Shown here in pieces: positions 3,220 through 36,171 of a stretch of DNA of 37,332 nucleotides. Position numbers and translations under genes: made by a program. Positions within the stretch are counted from its first letter, which is position 1, and every line of letters begins with the position of its first letter. The notes under the pieces are model-generated. The model made no database searches. It saw only the letters and a list, made by a program, of their open reading frames with translations, and was not told where the DNA came from. The stretch is from a virus. The stretch covers positions 1-37,332 of IMG/VR virus record IMGVR_UViG_3300031857_000579. One strand, 5' to 3'.

Positions 3220-3601
3220 AATTGAAGCGCTGACTGCCGCTGTTCTCGCGTTGACTGCCAAACTTGAGTCGAGCAATGTAGCACCAGCCGCACCCGTTGC
3301 GCCAGCTCCTGCACCTGTGGTAGAAGTTGCACCAGTGGTAACCGCTCCCGTGGCTCCCGTCATGCCTGCTCCCCCAGCTTTTGTAACCCCTGCGCCAGCT
3401 CCTGCACCTGTGGCCGGTGGTGCACCGTTCTCTGACGGCAAAGGTCTAATCGACTATGTCATGAGTGCATATAAGGCACTGGGCGCAGCTAAGGGATCAC
3501 AGATCCAAAACGTACTGGTGAGCTTGGGTTACCAGAACATCAACGATGTCAAACCTGAGCACTATGGTGCGTTGTTTGCTGGTGTTGAGGCACTGAAATG
3601 A
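3203..3601 (+). CDS. Hypothetical protein with Pro/Ala linker
   Basis: A 132-residue protein in three parts: an N-terminal helix of about 25 residues (KIEALTAAVLALTAKLES) that could be a coiled coil, a low-complexity Pro/Ala/Val linker at about 27-75, and a compact C-terminal domain (about 76-132) ending INDVKPEHYGALFAGVEAL. The design suggests an oligomerising helix tethering a globular domain. Its position between a regulator and the Cas4-like nuclease suggests a role in replication or recombination. I know no assigned function. The stop overlaps the next gene's ATG. Confidence 0.65.
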   Translation: MSLENKIEALTAAVLALTAKLESSNVAPAAPVAPAPAPVVEVAPVVTAPVAPVMPAPPAFVTPAPAPAPVAGGAPFSDGKGLIDYVMSAYKALGAAKGSQIQNVLVSLGYQNINDVKPEHYGALFAGVEALK

Positions 3602-4896
3602 GCGATCACGCCAAGCTGTCCCCCTCGAAGCGCAACCGCTGGGCCTTGTGCCCTGGTAGCATTCGAGAGGAGGCCAAGTACCCTGAGCAAGAAAGCGGTG
3701 AAGCCGCTGTTGACGGGACACACAGCCACACGTTGCTTGAGACTTGCATCAAAAGTGGCATGGACGCTGCCTTATACGTTGGTCAAAGTCTTTTTGACCA
3801 CGAAGGGCAGTTTAAGGTTGACGCCGACCGCGCCAAGCGCGTGCAGATTGCACTTGACTACATTGCCAAACGAGTAAAAGAAGAAGGCACGCCTTTCTTT
3901 ATCGCTAAGGTAATTAGCGAAACCCGTGTTGACCCTGCGCACTTGCTTGGCCGTGACGATTTGTCCGGCACAGTGGACGTTCAGATTCAGTGTTATGACA
4001 TCTTGGAACTGATCGACTATAAAGATGGTATGGGTGTCGTTAGCGCTGAAGGTAACTTGCAGCTTGAGCAGTACGCTTACGGTGTGCTGGCAGGCTACAA
4101 GCTGCCCGTTAACGGCCCCTATCCTTTCAAAACAGTTCGCATGACAATCATCCAGCCTAAGCTGGCACTGCGCGGCATGAATCCAATCACATCTCATGAT
4201 GTGGCTGTAAGCGATCTGTTGGCTAACATGGGTACAATCATCACGCAAGCTGCCGCAACTGACAAACCAGATGCACCGCTTGTACCGGGTGAAAGTCAAT
4301 GTAAATTTTGCCGCGCTAAGGGATCATGCTCCGCGCTGGCAAGTAACGTAATGAAGGAGGTAGGAATCATGTTCCAGCCAGTAGTAAGTCAAACACTCGA
4401 TGTCGCGCAGCAAAGCGCTGACAAAGATCCATCCACGATGGACGATGCCCAGATCCGTCAGATCATGGAAGCCGCTCCCCTGATGCGCCAACTCCTCGAA
4501 GGTGTGGAGAAGGAAGCCCTGCGCCGCTTGGAAGCTGGTCAAACCATTGCCGGCCTCAAACTGGTTAATGGCCGTGGCTCCCGTGCTTGGGCATTACCCG
4601 AAGAAGAGATGGCCGAGAAGCTCGTGAAGATGGGCATCCCTAAAAGCGCGATCTATGAAACCAAACTCGTCACCCCTGCTAAGGCTGAGAAGCTGACGTG
4701 GGACAAGAAAGACGGCACAAAGGTTCAGCTTACCGACAGACAGCTTGCCCGTATGGAGCAGGAATATGTCGTCAAGATTGCTGGCAAACTGACTGTCGTT
4801 CCCGAATCTGATAGCCGCCAGGCTGTCATAACAAATGCTGCGCCGCTGTTTAGCGCAGTTGAAACCCCCGCCGAGCTTCCAGCTTGGCTTTCGTAA
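3598..4896 (+). CDS. DUF2800 Cas4/RecB-like PD-(D/E)XK nuclease
   Basis: A 432-residue protein with the features of phage DUF2800, a Cas4/AddB-related nuclease family. An N-terminal Cys (C18 in WALCPGS) and a C-terminal trio (C235, C238, C244 in CKFCRAKGSC) match the four-Cys 4Fe-4S set. The nuclease core shows DGTHSH (39-44), D127 in GTVDVQ, and D140-Y-K142 in LIDYKDG as the D...(D/E)XK residues, with QLEQYAYG (155-162) as the following helix. About 180 residues follow the cluster, rich in Lys and Glu and of unknown role. It probably trims DNA ends during recombination or replication. It overlaps the upstream gene by 4 bases. Confidence 0.8.
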   Translation: MSDHAKLSPSKRNRWALCPGSIREEAKYPEQESGEAAVDGTHSHTLLETCIKSGMDAALYVGQSLFDHEGQFKVDADRAKRVQIALDYIAKRVKEEGTPFFIAKVISETRVDPAHLLGRDDLSGTVDVQIQCYDILELIDYKDGMGVVSAEGNLQLEQYAYGVLAGYKLPVNGPYPFKTVRMTIIQPKLALRGMNPITSHDVAVSDLLANMGTIITQAAATDKPDAPLVPGESQCKFCRAKGSCSALASNVMKEVGIMFQPVVSQTLDVAQQSADKDPSTMDDAQIRQIMEAAPLMRQLLEGVEKEALRRLEAGQTIAGLKLVNGRGSRAWALPEEEMAEKLVKMGIPKSAIYETKLVTPAKAEKLTWDKKDGTKVQLTDRQLARMEQEYVVKIAGKLTVVPESDSRQAVITNAAPLFSAVETPAELPAWLS

Positions 4897-5706: not shown

Positions 5707-7563
5707 ATGAGTAATGATTATGTGTATGACATCGAAACCTACCCCAACGTCTTCACGCTGGCGGTGGAGCATACAGATGCGCCGCTATGCTGGTCTTTTG
5801 AGATCAGCGACCAACGTAACGATTCCAAAGAGATCATCGAGTTTCTCCAGTATCTCAAGGATACGAACGCACGCATGGTCGGGTACAACAACCTGGGGTT
5901 CGACTATCCCGTCCTGCATACGCTGATCCGCATGGGCAAGTCAGATGCCCGAACCCTATACGACAAGGCCATGGCCATCATTAACTCGCAAGATGACGAT
6001 GAAGGTGGCAAGTGGATGCACCAGGTCAACCCGACTGACCGTTTTGTCGAGCAGATCGATCTGTTCAAGATCCACCATTTTGACAACAAGGCACGGGCTA
6101 CCAGCCTCAAGATGCTTGAGTTCAATATGCGCTCGGATACCATCGAGGATCTGCCGTTCCCCGTGGGCACGGCGCTGGGTAAAGAACAGATCGTGACCCT
6201 CAAGAAGTACAACGCCAAGGACGTGCGGGAAACCAAAGCGTTCTATCACAAATCGCTGGACATGATCCGGTTCCGCGAGGAGCTGACGGCCAAGTACAAC
6301 CGTGACTTCATGAATCACAACGACACCAAGATTGGCAAAGATTACTTTGTCATGAAGCTGGAAGAGGCCGGTGTCGCCTGCTATGACTTTAGCTCCAAGG
6401 GACGCACACCCCGCCAGACCCCACGCCCATCGATTGCGCTCAAAGACGCCATCCTGCCGTGGATCCAGTTTGAATCGCCCGAGTTCAACCGTGTGCTTAA
6501 CTGGCTAAAAGAGCAGACAATCACGGAAACGAAGGGGGTGTTCAATGATCTCATCGCTCGCGTTCATGGCTTCGATTTTGTGTTTGGCCTTGGCGGCATT
6601 CATGGATCCATTGAGTCGGAAGTGGTCGAATCGGATGCTGATCACGTCATTGTTGATCTGGACGTTACCTCCTATTATCCAAATCTTGCTATCACTAACG
6701 GATTTCATCCTGCCCATCTTGGCAAGGAATTCGTAAGCATTTACAAGCACCTGTTTGAGCAGCGCAAAACGTACCCCAAGAAGTCAGCCGAGTCAGCGAT
6801 GCTGAAGTTGGCGCTGAACGGTGTGTATGGCGACAGCAACAGCCGCTTCAGCGTCTTTTATGACCCACTGTTCACTATGTCCATTACGCTCAACGGCCAG
6901 CTTCTGCTGTGCCTGCTGGCTGAAGGACTGATGCACATCGAAGGACTTCGCTTGATCCAGGTAAACACGGACGGTCTGACAGTGCGTGTGCCCAGGCAGA
7001 ACAAGTGGCTGGTGGATCTGGCCCGTGCAGCTTGGCAGCTCCGCACCGGCTTGAACCTTGAAGAAGCCATCTACAAGACCATGATGATCCGTGACGTAAA
7101 CAACTACATCGCTCAGTACGAGGATGGGAACGTCAAGCGCAAGGGTGCGTATGAGTGGAGTGCTTTATGGCATCAAAACGCCGGCGGCCTGGTGATCCCC
7201 AAGGTGGCTGAAAAGGTTTTGATCGAGGGTGCACCGATCCGCGAGACGCTGCAAAACTGGCCAGACATCATGGACTTCATGCTTCGCACCAAAGTGCCAC
7301 GGTCTAGCCATCTAGCCATTGAGCGTGACGGCGTGACCTCACAACTGCAAAACATCACACGCTATTACATCGCTGAGGGCGGTGGACGACTGTTCAAGTG
7401 GATGCCTCCGCTTGCCAAGAATCCTGGCCAGTGGCGAAAGATTGGCGTTGAAGCTGGCTGGGGTGTCCAGCCTTGCAATGACATCAAGGATGCTGGCAAG
7501 TTGCCAGTGGATTTTGACTATTACATTCAAGAGGTGGAAAAACTCTGCCTCGGATTAGCATGA
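5707..7563 (+). CDS. Family B DNA polymerase with 3'-5' exonuclease
   Basis: The replicative polymerase, 618 residues from the chosen ATG at 5707. An in-frame ATG at 5695 exists, but 5707 follows the GGTAATTGTA leader shared with neighbouring genes. The exonuclease domain shows Exo I DIET near residue 6, Exo II NNLGFDYPVL and Exo III YNAKDVRE. The polymerase domain shows motif A DVTSYYPNLAI from 319, motif B KLALNGVYGDSNS from 367, and motif C as NTDG (420-423). In motif C the usual first Asp of DTD is Asn; the second, catalytic-type Asp is D422. The protein is short for PolB. No terminal protein is seen, so protein priming cannot be assumed; the prim-pol primase is the likely partner. Confidence 0.88.
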   Translation: MSNDYVYDIETYPNVFTLAVEHTDAPLCWSFEISDQRNDSKEIIEFLQYLKDTNARMVGYNNLGFDYPVLHTLIRMGKSDARTLYDKAMAIINSQDDDEGGKWMHQVNPTDRFVEQIDLFKIHHFDNKARATSLKMLEFNMRSDTIEDLPFPVGTALGKEQIVTLKKYNAKDVRETKAFYHKSLDMIRFREELTAKYNRDFMNHNDTKIGKDYFVMKLEEAGVACYDFSSKGRTPRQTPRPSIALKDAILPWIQFESPEFNRVLNWLKEQTITETKGVFNDLIARVHGFDFVFGLGGIHGSIESEVVESDADHVIVDLDVTSYYPNLAITNGFHPAHLGKEFVSIYKHLFEQRKTYPKKSAESAMLKLALNGVYGDSNSRFSVFYDPLFTMSITLNGQLLLCLLAEGLMHIEGLRLIQVNTDGLTVRVPRQNKWLVDLARAAWQLRTGLNLEEAIYKTMMIRDVNNYIAQYEDGNVKRKGAYEWSALWHQNAGGLVIPKVAEKVLIEGAPIRETLQNWPDIMDFMLRTKVPRSSHLAIERDGVTSQLQNITRYYIAEGGGRLFKWMPPLAKNPGQWRKIGVEAGWGVQPCNDIKDAGKLPVDFDYYIQEVEKLCLGLA

Positions 7564-30187: not shown

Positions 30188-31713
30188 TATGATCCCATCC
30201 ATGATGTTGCAACTACACTACGATCTGAATATGTGCGGCGTGGTGCAGTGTCACGCGACTCACGATGTGCTACTGGAAAGGCAAAAGTCACGGCAAGAGC
30301 GTCAGCTGCATCGGGTGAAGCAAGACCTCGTGCTTTCATTTCCTTTTTACCTTCCAAAAAGATAGTACCTGCGGAATTGGGCTTTTTAGTCGGCCCGATG
30401 AGGTCAGCTTTGAGCTGTCTGTCGGTAGGAATCGCGGCTGACCTGAGCCATTCGCGCATCATACCCCACATCTCAGCCCGCTTGTTACCCCACATTATGG
30501 GGTTTTTCGCCTTCCAGCCAAAGTTAACCCCGCGCACTTTGTACCGCTGCTCGGTTAATCTGTCAAGTATCCCGTAGCCAAGGCCACCCTCGTCAATCAC
30601 GGTCAAAACAGGCTTGTACTCCTCGATCGCCTCGATGACGTGGCCGACAACGCTCATGGTGTCCTCACCTTTGTAGCGTTTGATGGCCACCAAGTCACGC
30701 CCTTGGCGCACCACGATGACCGTGCTGTCCATGCCTCCACGAGCTGGGTCAACACCGATGACGATCGGGGCTGTCAGGTCTTTGTACTTAGGCCGTTTGA
30801 ACGCATCCTCGACCACAACGGGCGAGATGAACTGGTCTTCGCCGGCGGCGGGGAACTCGCCGTAGACCTCGATGCGAGCTTGTATGGAGTCTTCGCCGTA
30901 CTCGGCGATGATCTGGTCATAGACGGCTTTGTCTGTACCCTCGACTGTCCTGGCATCGATGATCTCGGTGTCCCAGAAGTCCCGTTTGGCGTTGAAACAC
31001 TCGAAGAAGTACCCGGTGTTACGCCGTGGGTTACTGAACGCGAACCAGTACCTGTCCAAGATCTTTTCGGTAAAGAAGCCAGAAGCAACTGACCAGATCG
31101 TGTCTGGAATACCCGATGCTTCGTCAAAAATCACCATCATCCCATCGTGGTTGTGGACACCGGCATACGAGTCTGGGTTTTCTTCAGACCACAGCTTGCC
31201 CTCAGCAGCCCAGTAACGAGTACCCTTTTTAAGATCACGCTCGACCAGCTCGGTCAACCACTGCGCAGGAACCAGCTTGGTGGCACTCGGCTCCCACCAG
31301 TGCGAGTTGATCGCCATGGTCGCCCACTTGGTCAGCTCACCCCAGGTCACCGTGCGCAGCTGGTTCTCACTGTTAGCCGACACAATGACAGAACTACCTA
31401 TCCGAGTGGTTAGCATCCACAAGATCAGCCAGCTCACCAGTGCTGATTTCCCAATTCCCCGCCCAGACGACACAGCACGTCTAAGTGCATCCATGTCCAT
31501 CTGTCCACGGTTAGCCTTGATGTGATCGGCAATTTTTCTAAGTGTCCTACGCTGCCATGCTCGTGGGCCTTTGAAGTGTTCGAGTGGGGTGTTCTTCTGC
31601 CCCCATGGAAACGCAAAAAGTACAAACGTCTCTGGGTTGTCTGCAATCTGGGAACTCCAGAGCTGGGTCATCAAGACCTGCTCGTCTTGGGGTGAGTAAA
31701 TGGGTTTTTGCAT
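30187..31713 (-). CDS. terL: Terminase large subunit
   Basis: A 508-residue packaging motor. ATPase: Walker A SSGRGIGKSA (82-91), Walker B MVIFDEAS with D197 and E198, and a coupling motif near FAFSNPRRN (224-232). Nuclease: D322 in IGVDPARGG, D374 in TVIDEGGLG, and the C-terminal ASPDAADALA with D468 and D471, together the RNase H-like metal site. It resembles the large terminases of P22/Sf6-type headful packagers. It overlaps TerS by one base. Confidence 0.92.
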   Translation of the reverse strand: MQKPIYSPQDEQVLMTQLWSSQIADNPETFVLFAFPWGQKNTPLEHFKGPRAWQRRTLRKIADHIKANRGQMDMDALRRAVSSGRGIGKSALVSWLILWMLTTRIGSSVIVSANSENQLRTVTWGELTKWATMAINSHWWEPSATKLVPAQWLTELVERDLKKGTRYWAAEGKLWSEENPDSYAGVHNHDGMMVIFDEASGIPDTIWSVASGFFTEKILDRYWFAFSNPRRNTGYFFECFNAKRDFWDTEIIDARTVEGTDKAVYDQIIAEYGEDSIQARIEVYGEFPAAGEDQFISPVVVEDAFKRPKYKDLTAPIVIGVDPARGGMDSTVIVVRQGRDLVAIKRYKGEDTMSVVGHVIEAIEEYKPVLTVIDEGGLGYGILDRLTEQRYKVRGVNFGWKAKNPIMWGNKRAEMWGMMREWLRSAAIPTDRQLKADLIGPTKKPNSAGTIFLEGKKEMKARGLASPDAADALAVTFAFPVAHRESRDTAPRRTYSDRSVVATSWMGS

Positions 31714-32267
31714 CAGTCGCCCTTCACGTCTACATCAATTACCTCAGCCTCGATCACCCTGGCACGAGCCTGCGCCAGCGCATCGGTAATCGAGATCGAT
31801 CCACCCAGCTCGACTGTTTTAGTCTCACCGTATTTTTTGCGATTGTGCGCACCCATGAGCCACTTCCGAGTGTCAATCTTGAGCCTGCTTCTGTTCACAT
31901 CTTCAAGTGTGTCATCCGCATCGGCAATCTCAATGATCTCGCCGGCCATGAACTCGGTGCGCATCTCCTGCGCCTCAGTGAACAACTGGTTCCTCTGCGG
32001 ATCTTTTTTGATCCACCGATAAAAGTCGTTGTAGTCGATGTCCCGCTGATCATCCCGAAGGATCTGGGACAGTGACTGGCCGTGGGCAATTGAGTCGATG
32101 ACTCGCATAAAAATGTGCTCGTACTGAGCCAATGCGAGAGCTTTCACCTCAGGGGGTGATTTGGCAAGCGTGCGAGGGGCAGGGTCTAGCCAGTCTGGTA
32201 TTTCGATTTTGTTATCGCTGGTCAGTGTGACATCTGCGCCTACAGGATCGGGTGTTAATGATTCCAT
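31713..32267 (-). CDS. terS: Terminase small subunit
   Basis: A 184-residue protein that recognises the packaging site and loads TerL. An N-terminal linker is followed by a helical region with an HTH-like stretch (LSQILRDDQRDIDYNDFYRW), oligomerisation helices, and the typical RLKIDTRKWLMG with KYGETK near 130-150. The ATG at 32267 is forced: an in-frame TAG lies five codons upstream and the next Met is over 50 codons in. No Shine-Dalgarno is visible, and the candidate promoter at 32277-32305 would give only a three- to four-base leader, so it may be translated nearly leaderless. First gene of the late region. Confidence 0.82.
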   Translation of the reverse strand: MESLTPDPVGADVTLTSDNKIEIPDWLDPAPRTLAKSPPEVKALALAQYEHIFMRVIDSIAHGQSLSQILRDDQRDIDYNDFYRWIKKDPQRNQLFTEAQEMRTEFMAGEIIEIADADDTLEDVNRSRLKIDTRKWLMGAHNRKKYGETKTVELGGSISITDALAQARARVIEAEVIDVDVKGD

Positions 32268-32276
32268 AGTGCTGTG

Positions 32277-32305
32277 ATGCTATCACGGGATTGGGAAATG
32301 TGCAA
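32277..32305 (-). promoter_or_regulatory. Candidate late promoter with overlapping operator
   Basis: On the minus strand TTGCAC (plus 32300-32305), exactly 17 bases, then an extended -10 TGA-TAGCAT (hexamer plus 32277-32282), followed within ten bases by the TerS ATG. A perfect inverted repeat GTGAT-GCT-ATCAC (32274-32286) covers the -10, a plausible repressor site. ACCCATTGGGT (32321-32331) lies just upstream of the -35. Not tested beyond pattern. Confidence 0.45.
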
Positions 32306-32320
32306 CTGTGGGATAACAGA

Positions 32321-32850
32321 ACCCATTGGGTAACGGGTTAATTTGAAAAAATAAAAAATTGTTCGTGATACCTCCCCGTCTGGGCCACATCGGTCGCCGG
32401 CCCTACCCGGCCCCATCGCGCAACTGGCACGGATCCTGCTTCGCGCAGCCGGCCATCGCGGGCCGCTGGCCATCGCGCCGCCGTGAATCGCTGGCCGCCG
32501 TGGATCCCAGGCGCAGGCCGCCGCCGGTGAATCGATGCGGCCATGTTACCCGCTGGGTGAATCAGTGGCCACAAAACCCAGCGGGTTCGCTGATTCGCTG
32601 GCCATGGGCACGGGAACCCAGCGGGTGAGGGAATCACCCAGCGGGTGCACGGGATCGCGGAAAGCTGGCCAGTGCGTCAATTGTGACATCGCGCAGGCGA
32701 GGGGGCTGATTCATACTTTTTGAAACAGCACAAGAAATCCGGAAATCCTAAAATCCATATCCCTCTGTAAGTCACAACTGACGCACCAGGGAAGCACGGA
32801 AACCCAGAGGGTAGGGAAAGCACCTAGATAAATATTTTCACCCAGTGGGT
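32321..32850. repeat. Seven-copy palindromic motif ACCC-N3-GGGT
   Basis: Copies at 32321-32331 (centre ATT), 32548-32558 (GCT), 32576-32586, 32616-32626 and 32636-32646 (all AGC), 32802-32812 (AGA) and 32840-32850 (AGT). The last three central copies are spaced 40 and 20 bases start to start, close to whole helical turns, and the copy before them is 28 away. The outermost copies sit beside the two divergent promoters. Best explained as operator or iteron sites for a dimeric DNA-binding protein. Confidence 0.6.
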
Positions 32851-32877
32851 TGACAATCGATAATTCTGTGATAACCT
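32850..32877 (+). promoter_or_regulatory. Candidate rightward promoter of the small-gene operon
   Basis: A consensus TTGACA (32850-32855), a 16-base spacer and TG-A-TAACCT (hexamer 32872-32877), about 59 bases before the first gene. The -35 shares its first base with the last copy of the ACCC-N3-GGGT palindrome (32840-32850), so a bound protein would contact or block polymerase. A GATAAT at 32858-32863 is an alternative -10 with a poorer -35. Confidence 0.5.
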
Positions 32878-32935: not shown

Positions 32936-33124
32936 ATGAACAAATCTGAAATTCGCGAATTGAACAAGATCGAGCAATATCACGCTGCAGGCCTGGGCCT
33001 TGATTTTGTGGCCCGTGCATTGTCTGCGCTGATTCGCTCAGCTCGCACAAATAAGAGCGCCGCAGCACTGCGTGAAGCTGCTACCCGCCTGGGTGTAGTT
33101 GGTCACCCTGAATTCATCGCCTAA
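32936..33124 (+). CDS. Hypothetical small protein
   Basis: A 62-residue helical, slightly basic protein with ribosome site TTGGAGATC. The sequence shows two Ala-rich helices (GLDFVARALSALIRSARTNK and AALREAATRLG) without Cys or membrane segments. It is the first gene after the palindrome array and its promoter, so it should be among the earliest expressed. The compact helical form would suit a regulator or host-takeover protein, but no family is recognised. Confidence 0.7.
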   Translation: MNKSEIRELNKIEQYHAAGLGLDFVARALSALIRSARTNKSAAALREAATRLGVVGHPEFIA

Positions 33125-35812: not shown

Positions 35813-35841
35813 CCCCCAGCTCACCCGCTGGGGGCTTTTTT
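35813..35841 (+). terminator. Terminator of the small-gene operon
   Basis: CCCCCAGC (35813-35820), loop TCACCC, GCTGGGGG (35827-35834), then C and six T residues (35836-35841). A strong intrinsic terminator closing the 32936-35784 operon. Its loop and 3' arm contain ACCCGCTGGGG, one base off the ACCC-N3-GGGT palindrome. Confidence 0.85.
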
Positions 35842-35862: not shown

Positions 35863-36171
35863 ATGACACCAACTAACCCGCCACAATTTACCGCCGACCT
35901 GCTGGCCATGATCGAGCGCCAGGCACTGAGCGACACCAGGGCCGCCGGCCTGCTGGGTGTCCCAGTGTTCACCCTGCGCAAGTGGACAGCTGGCCAACGT
36001 GCCCCCAGCGCCGCCGCCGTGCGCCTGCTGTCCGTGCTGGGCACGCTCGAAGCGCTGGCCCCCGATGTGCTGGCCGCACTCACGCCGCCGGACGCCGCCG
36101 CCCCTACAAGGAGCGCCGGACGGCCTAAGAAACAAAGCCTTAAGGCTCCCAACCAGCCGATAACCGGTTAA
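35863..36171 (+). CDS. Helix-turn-helix DNA-binding protein
   Basis: A 102-residue protein with site TGAGGATC. Residues about 20-58 (LSDTRAAGLLGVPVFTLRKW then TAGQRAPSAAAVRLLSVL) form a clear XRE/YdaS-type HTH, with a recognition helix around VPVFTLRKW. The C-terminus is basic (GRPKKQ, AT-hook-like) and ends KAPNQPITG, a tail repeated at the start of the next gene. It is the best candidate in the window for a regulator that binds the palindrome array, though this is inference. Confidence 0.75.
   Translation: MTPTNPPQFTADLLAMIERQALSDTRAAGLLGVPVFTLRKWTAGQRAPSAAAVRLLSVLGTLEALAPDVLAALTPPDAAAPTRSAGRPKKQSLKAPNQPITG
36129..36161 (+). repeat. 33-base direct repeat, copy 1
   Basis: Matches 36205-36237 at 30 of 33 bases, including a perfect 21-base core (36141-36161). 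It encodes the KQS-x-KAPNQPI tail of the HTH protein. Confidence 0.85.

Follow-up and report, generated by a model that had tools for sequence, protein, structure and literature searches.

Probable operators of a phage-encoded antitoxin-like HTH protein between the divergent early and late operons of an uncultivated freshwater phage

What is the role of seven copies of one 11-bp palindrome placed between two divergent phage operons? The question is raised by the uncultivated virus record IMGVR_UViG_3300031857_000579, a freshwater phage whose 37,332 bp (positions 1-37,332, i.e. the whole stretch analysed, referred to below as the window) encode an Sf6-like terminase and P22-like late genes in the leftward direction (the portal assignment derives from names under the match) and an early module, from position 32936 on, in the rightward direction. 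The gene set includes PrimPol, an exonuclease, an annealing protein, a DNA polymerase, a VRR-type nuclease and a helicase. The array occupies 530 bp between the late operon, which starts with terS, and the early operon (Table 1). An earlier, sequence-only reading of this DNA had proposed that the palindromes are either a shared operator set for an early/late switch or the iterons of an origin, and had named the products of the genes at 35863, 3022 and 36203 as candidate binders.

Table 1. Position of the operator sites and neighbouring features in the window (promoters predicted from sequence)
Feature	Coordinates	Strand	Remarks
Operator site 1, late site, ACCCATTGGGT	32321..32331		Centre at approximately -56 of the predicted leftward late start; exact match
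Operator site 2, central cluster, ACCCGCTGGGT	32548..32558		Exact match
Operator site 3, central cluster, ACCCAGCGGGT	32576..32586		Exact match
Operator site 4, central cluster, ACCCAGCGGGT	32616..32626		Exact match
Operator site 5, central cluster, ACCCAGCGGGT	32636..32646		Exact match
Operator site 6, early distal, ACCCAGAGGGT	32802..32812		Exact match
Operator site 7, early proximal, ACCCAGTGGGT	32840..32850		Abuts early -35, 1 base in common
Conserved 115-nt element with TCGCgcagGCGA and TTTTTGAAACAGCAC	32672..32786		Inverted-repeat arms 32672-32687/32771-32786; between central and early sites
terS	31713..32267	-	Sf6-like small terminase; first gene of leftward late operon; anchor for relatives
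Predicted leftward late promoter	32277..32305	-	-35 TTGCAC (32300-32305), 17-bp spacer, TG-extended -10 TAGCAT (32277-32282)
Predicted rightward early promoter	32850..32877	+	-35 TTGACA (32850-32855), 16-bp spacer, TG-extended -10 TAACCT (32872-32877)
First small gene of rightward early operon	32936..33124	+	62 aa, no family
Intrinsic terminator CCCCCAGCTCACCCGCTGGGGG-CTTTTTT	35813..35841	+	Approximately 21 bp before HTH start codon
HTH protein, proposed binder	35863..36171	+	102 aa; recognition helix V33-W41 VPVFTLRKW, key residue K40

The palindrome array and its conservation

All seven ACCC-N3-GGGT palindromes were confirmed as exact matches, with the central spacings of 28, 40 and 20 bp that had been described. 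The two promoter-associated copies are also placed as claimed: site 1 is located upstream of the leftward -35, at a distance of 15 bp, and the last site touches the rightward one. A comparison with shuffled sequence, which had been suggested as a control, was made for the 668-bp intergenic stretch, and 2000 dinucleotide shuffles of it contained a mean of 0.02 copies and a maximum of 1. In 200 shuffles of the whole window the mean was 0.29 copies, with never more than 1 within any 530 bp. Other palindromes of the 4+N3+4 type occur at most once each in the intergenic stretch.

Related loci were collected from IMG/VR by a search anchored on terS (80 loci) and, as a second set, by a search anchored on the HTH gene. 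Locus counts in these collections are not independent; the main claims draw on nonredundant sets and on a count made along a tree. The array, looked for in these genomes, proved to be conserved: the 80 terS loci contain 354 copies of the exact motif in the 70 kb upstream of terS versus 46 in the other 600 kb. The possibility, raised beforehand, that the motif is just as frequent in coding regions was not borne out, as no enrichment was detected outside the array. The layout that recurs in relatives comprises (i) one site approximately 53-85 bp from terS, (ii) a central cluster and (iii) usually a pair of sites at the early promoter; it was the same in the HTH-anchored loci, and the metagenome-assembled phage DSL-LC05 also carries the array. 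The fuller consensus is ACCCA-n-TGGGT, i.e. a half-site ACCCA with a single-base centre, in which one or both of the inner A/T bases are usually retained. A literature search for the letters of the motif yielded no description of it.

The window contains three additional exact copies (at 810, 1381 and 13114), all within coding sequence. Those at 810 and 1381 are located in the PrimPol gene, and several relatives have copies at similar distances, which probably reflects coding conservation. The near-match ACCCGCTGGGG at 35823 was rejected as an operator, since it forms part of the terminator stem. The more distant relative MW202483.1 (TerL 65% identical) was likewise rejected as a carrier of the same array: its counterpart of the intergenic region (6590-7140) carries a different palindrome, GTTTA-N2-TAAAC, in six exact copies. 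The HTH protein was unmatched in MW202483.1 in the search made, and a protein encoded there at 3510-3806 is annotated as a DnaA-type helix-turn-helix.

Identity of the HTH protein and covariation with the operators

Homologues of the 35863 protein were found in 18 of 20 related contigs. The family has the XRE HTH sequence signature, and in a Pfam analysis of 18 members, 15 matched HTH_31 and HTH_3 (best E-values 5e-7 and 4e-6) and 13 matched MqsA_antitoxin; matches to the NCBIfam models VC1465, MqsA-type and NadS were weak, the window protein scoring far under the curated cut-offs. Its AF2 model (pLDDT above 90 across the helical domain) has the fold of the HigA2/MqsA C-terminal domain, with HigA2 closest in structure comparison (5jaa and 5j9i, Z 8.7 and 8.0) and MqsA at Z 7.4-7.6. 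As the best Foldseek E-value was only 0.035, this match represents the agreement of a common fold. The best profile match to a solved structure was the E. coli antitoxin MqsA (3fmy, E 7e-4), with F36 and K40 aligned to Asn97 and Arg101, respectively, which are the DNA-binding residues of MqsA (PMC4901048).

The operator of MqsA, ACCT-N3-AGGT (PMC4901048), also given as AACCT-N3-AGGTT (PMC4894380), is a palindrome of the form ACC-n-N3-n-GGT, and so is ACCC-N3-GGGT; the geometry is the same and three of the four half-site bases are equal. In contrast to MqsA, whose half-site ends in T, the phage half-site ends in C, and the phage array consists of many sites. Moreover, 35863 is an HTH domain only, without the N-terminal zinc-binding domain; it has no recognised toxin partner and is encoded in a phage early module. 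HigA2/NadS-type antitoxins have the closest folds by structure, whereas no toxin gene was recognised beside 35863, the proposed role of which is that of a phage early/late regulator. By the tests made, the protein is an XRE HTH regulator of the MqsA/HigA2 fold, no more, and we file it neither as an antitoxin nor as a p4 homologue. A bacterial NadS-like protein with the helix VSVFTLRKW is encoded in L203 (7790-8150), with ACCC-TTT-GGGC 38 bp before its start codon. The chance of an equally good site in 220 bp is estimated at approximately 0.1, so this case is only suggestive; a scan of 398 bacterial genomes for further proteins with the same helix returned the starting case only.

Recognition helices ending in RKW accompany ACCC/GGGT arrays. 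A clade without ACCC/GGGT carries AGCCA-n-TGGCT palindromes at the corresponding positions, and this operator goes with VSxSTLRHW helices (six loci, e.g. VSVSTLRHW). In four further loci V[PS]VFTLRHW helices are paired with ACCCAGC-GGATC (sites ACCCAGCGGATC). Thus K40H (RKW to RHW) is found in two groups, and the same operator base is altered in both (AGCC/GGCT and ACCC/GGAT). When the second half-site base was counted on cores chosen without that base, it was C in 247 of 280 cases at RKW loci versus G in 33 of 50 at VSxS-RHW loci. The triplets following ACCCAnnn were GAT (11), GGT (4) and GCA (3) at VxVF-RHW sites, and GGT (128) and GAT (4) at RKW loci. A locus with the helix VSVFTFRKW retains a CCCA/TGGG array, which means that P34S by itself does not account for the change. 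Four loci (L155-L158) have RKW helices yet degenerate arrays. In a tree of the HTH proteins computed minus the helix columns the two RHW groups are separate (2 changes); formal rejection of a single RHW origin was not reached in an AU test (p=0.064).

This covariation favours the 35863 protein among the proposed binders, and the array very probably represents the binding sites of this antitoxin-like HTH protein of the phage itself. The array, with these matched changes in protein and DNA, occurs throughout a large group of uncultivated phages. The 36203 protein is unsupported as a binder, since most array-bearing relatives have no detectable homologue of it.

Predicted promoters, helical phasing and the terminator

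In phage phi29, the early protein p4 acts together with p6 at adjacent early and late promoters, where simultaneous repression and activation constitute the switch (PMC3100819). Two positional features of such p4-type control, a site on or in the early core promoter and an upstream late site dependent on the helix face, are both found at the predicted promoters of this phage group.

Among relatives, early promoters with the site in the spacer take the form TTGACA-n5-ACCCACTGGGT-TATAAT (in one example the spacer starts with agctc). In 35 nonredundant relatives the proximal early site lies in the -35/-10 spacer (15), on the -35 (8) or abutting it (4), and the automatic best promoter call was away from the site in 7 of the 35 early regions. 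The overlap with, or contact to, the early core promoter is the geometry of repression. The spacing between the counterparts of sites 6 and 7 clusters at approximately 38-40, 50 and 59 bp, and the two sites are phased relative to one another. Predicted early promoters matched the consensus at a mean of 9.5 of 12 positions (many are near consensus) and late promoters at 7.6 of 12, the higher early score being partly due to selection, because early promoters were sought around the site.

The late-promoter layout is also the same in relatives, most of which retain one late site, the counterpart of site 1, upstream of a weak promoter with a mostly TG-extended -10. The distance from this site to the terS ATG clusters at 53, 64, 75 and 84 bp (R=0.84 at 10.5 bp, n=41), with approximately 20 parsimony changes between distance classes on the terS tree. 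This phasing points to a face-of-helix constraint, and a phased site ahead of a weak promoter is the arrangement expected of activation through contact with RNA polymerase; the same constraint could also serve repression via polymerase contact. No phasing was seen in the gap that separates the late site from the central cluster (R=0.07), and looping between the two is therefore unsupported.

Two further observations concern the late region. The terS start codon lies approximately 10 nt past the predicted -10 (window 32267-32282), and likewise in relatives; at such proximity the late mRNA would probably have no leader or almost none. A conserved A/T tract (cgaacaattttttattttttcaaa, minus strand, 32338-32372), which separates the late site from a conserved GC-rich block, is possibly bent DNA or an UP element.

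The terminator placed just before the HTH gene suggests that synthesis of the protein probably needs read-through, which would delay the switch. A hairpin followed by a T-run was detected in 63 of 85 distinct regions upstream of the HTH gene, and the stem sequences are very different. In the two RHW groups the same scan found no terminator in most members, so the putative timer is not universal.

A proposed early-to-late switch and its alternatives

We consider it likely that the seven palindromes are 35863 operators and that this one protein would drive an early-to-late switch in which early transcription is repressed and late transcription activated. The protein would be made only by read-through past the terminator, hence late in the early phase, and would bind each ACCCA-n-TGGGT palindrome as a dimer. 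Bound at the proximal early site, it would shut off early transcription, including that of its own gene; at site 1, held on a fixed face of the helix, it would contact RNA polymerase and activate the late operon. The central cluster may raise the local concentration of the protein, serve as the nucleus of a larger complex or have a function at an origin. The sequences themselves show the array, its conservation, the helix/operator covariation, the placement of sites at the predicted promoters, the phasing and the terminator; binding, the dimeric state, repression, activation and the timer are what we infer from them. The shared operator set proposed earlier, with 35863 as its binder, gains support from conservation, covariation, promoter geometry and helical phasing.

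A different role, that of pure repressor operators, is unlikely, although more probable than the other alternatives. The HTH protein would then repress both promoters, in a lysogeny or maintenance type of control, and another factor would activate the late genes. XRE proteins of such kind are mostly repressors, the DSL-LC05 homologue is annotated as 'repressor protein C', and the site of the protein can clearly fall on the predicted early core promoter. However, the late site lies upstream of its promoter and not on it, the distances are phased and the extended -10 is weak. No such prophage was found with the HTH alignment in a scan of 84,980 bacterial and archaeal species (one genome per species), and DSL-LC05 was predicted to be virulent in its source paper (PMC10611076).

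We attach a low probability to the view that the central cluster and the 115-nt element constitute a replication origin with iteron-like palindromes, the promoter sites being secondary. The central sites do adjoin this conserved element with its inverted repeats and AT-rich core, and the phage encodes its own PrimPol, DNA polymerase and helicase. Iteron-type origins consist of regularly spaced direct repeats bound by a replication protein, and the sites here are palindromic and irregularly spaced. Moreover, a conserved site belongs to each of the promoters, the protein that covaries with the operators is an HTH regulator, and the region shows no sharp switch in GC skew. The iteron reading proposed earlier found no positive evidence and is a minor possibility for the central cluster. 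The element itself, which is possibly an origin element, had no match in Rfam. An RNA structure was rejected, as its arms pair inconsistently (L019, L032) and single-sequence scores vary, and 32672-32786 is therefore reported as an element only.

It is highly improbable that a host regulator or DNA-modification system recognises ACCC-N3-GGGT and that the phage has merely accumulated sites: the motif is short and palindromic and some phages carry host-factor sites, but a host factor would not explain why the motif changes clade by clade with the phage-encoded recognition helix. Equally improbable as the binder is the RHH-like 3022 protein, which is conserved in nearly all relatives and belongs to a class that binds short palindromes, since its homologue in the AGCC/GGCT clade (80% identical) retains the putative DNA-contact strand TKFLTVRLTP unchanged despite the altered operators.

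The proposed switch by 35863 would work similarly to that of phi29 p4 (promoters A2c, A2b and A3), the likeness being one of function only. The operator and array differ, phi29 uses p6 too, and the regulator proposed here, an HTH protein of the XRE/HigA2-like type, is encoded downstream of a terminator, with no claim of homology to p4. As in lambda (CI/Cro and tR1-cII), one protein would act at divergent promoters and a terminator lies just upstream of the regulator gene; unlike in lambda, no evidence of lysogeny was found (prophage scan with the HTH alignment), the operators are 11 bp long and the promoters are approximately 560 bp apart. Mycobacteriophage L5-type stoperators likewise provide one phage HTH protein with numerous short operators, but these are asymmetric and genome-wide, whereas the present array is palindromic and confined to one region. 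A literature search yielded no early/late switch of the XRE type in a phage.

Tentatively, a toxin-less antitoxin-type HTH protein may have been recruited by a large group of uncultivated phages as a terminator-gated master switch from early to late transcription, with the array also tied to a replication origin, coupling replication to the transcription switch, and with an operator code changed at least twice via one recognition residue. The analysis provides a regulatory circuit that can be tested, in a phage group represented in the searched collections by metagenomic sequences only, DSL-LC05 being the nearest named record. The natural series of matched helix and operator changes predicts a recognition rule, namely that K40 reads the third G of GGGT. 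The case also shows that uncultivated genomes by themselves can reveal a regulator and how it probably acts, through operator covariation and helical phasing.
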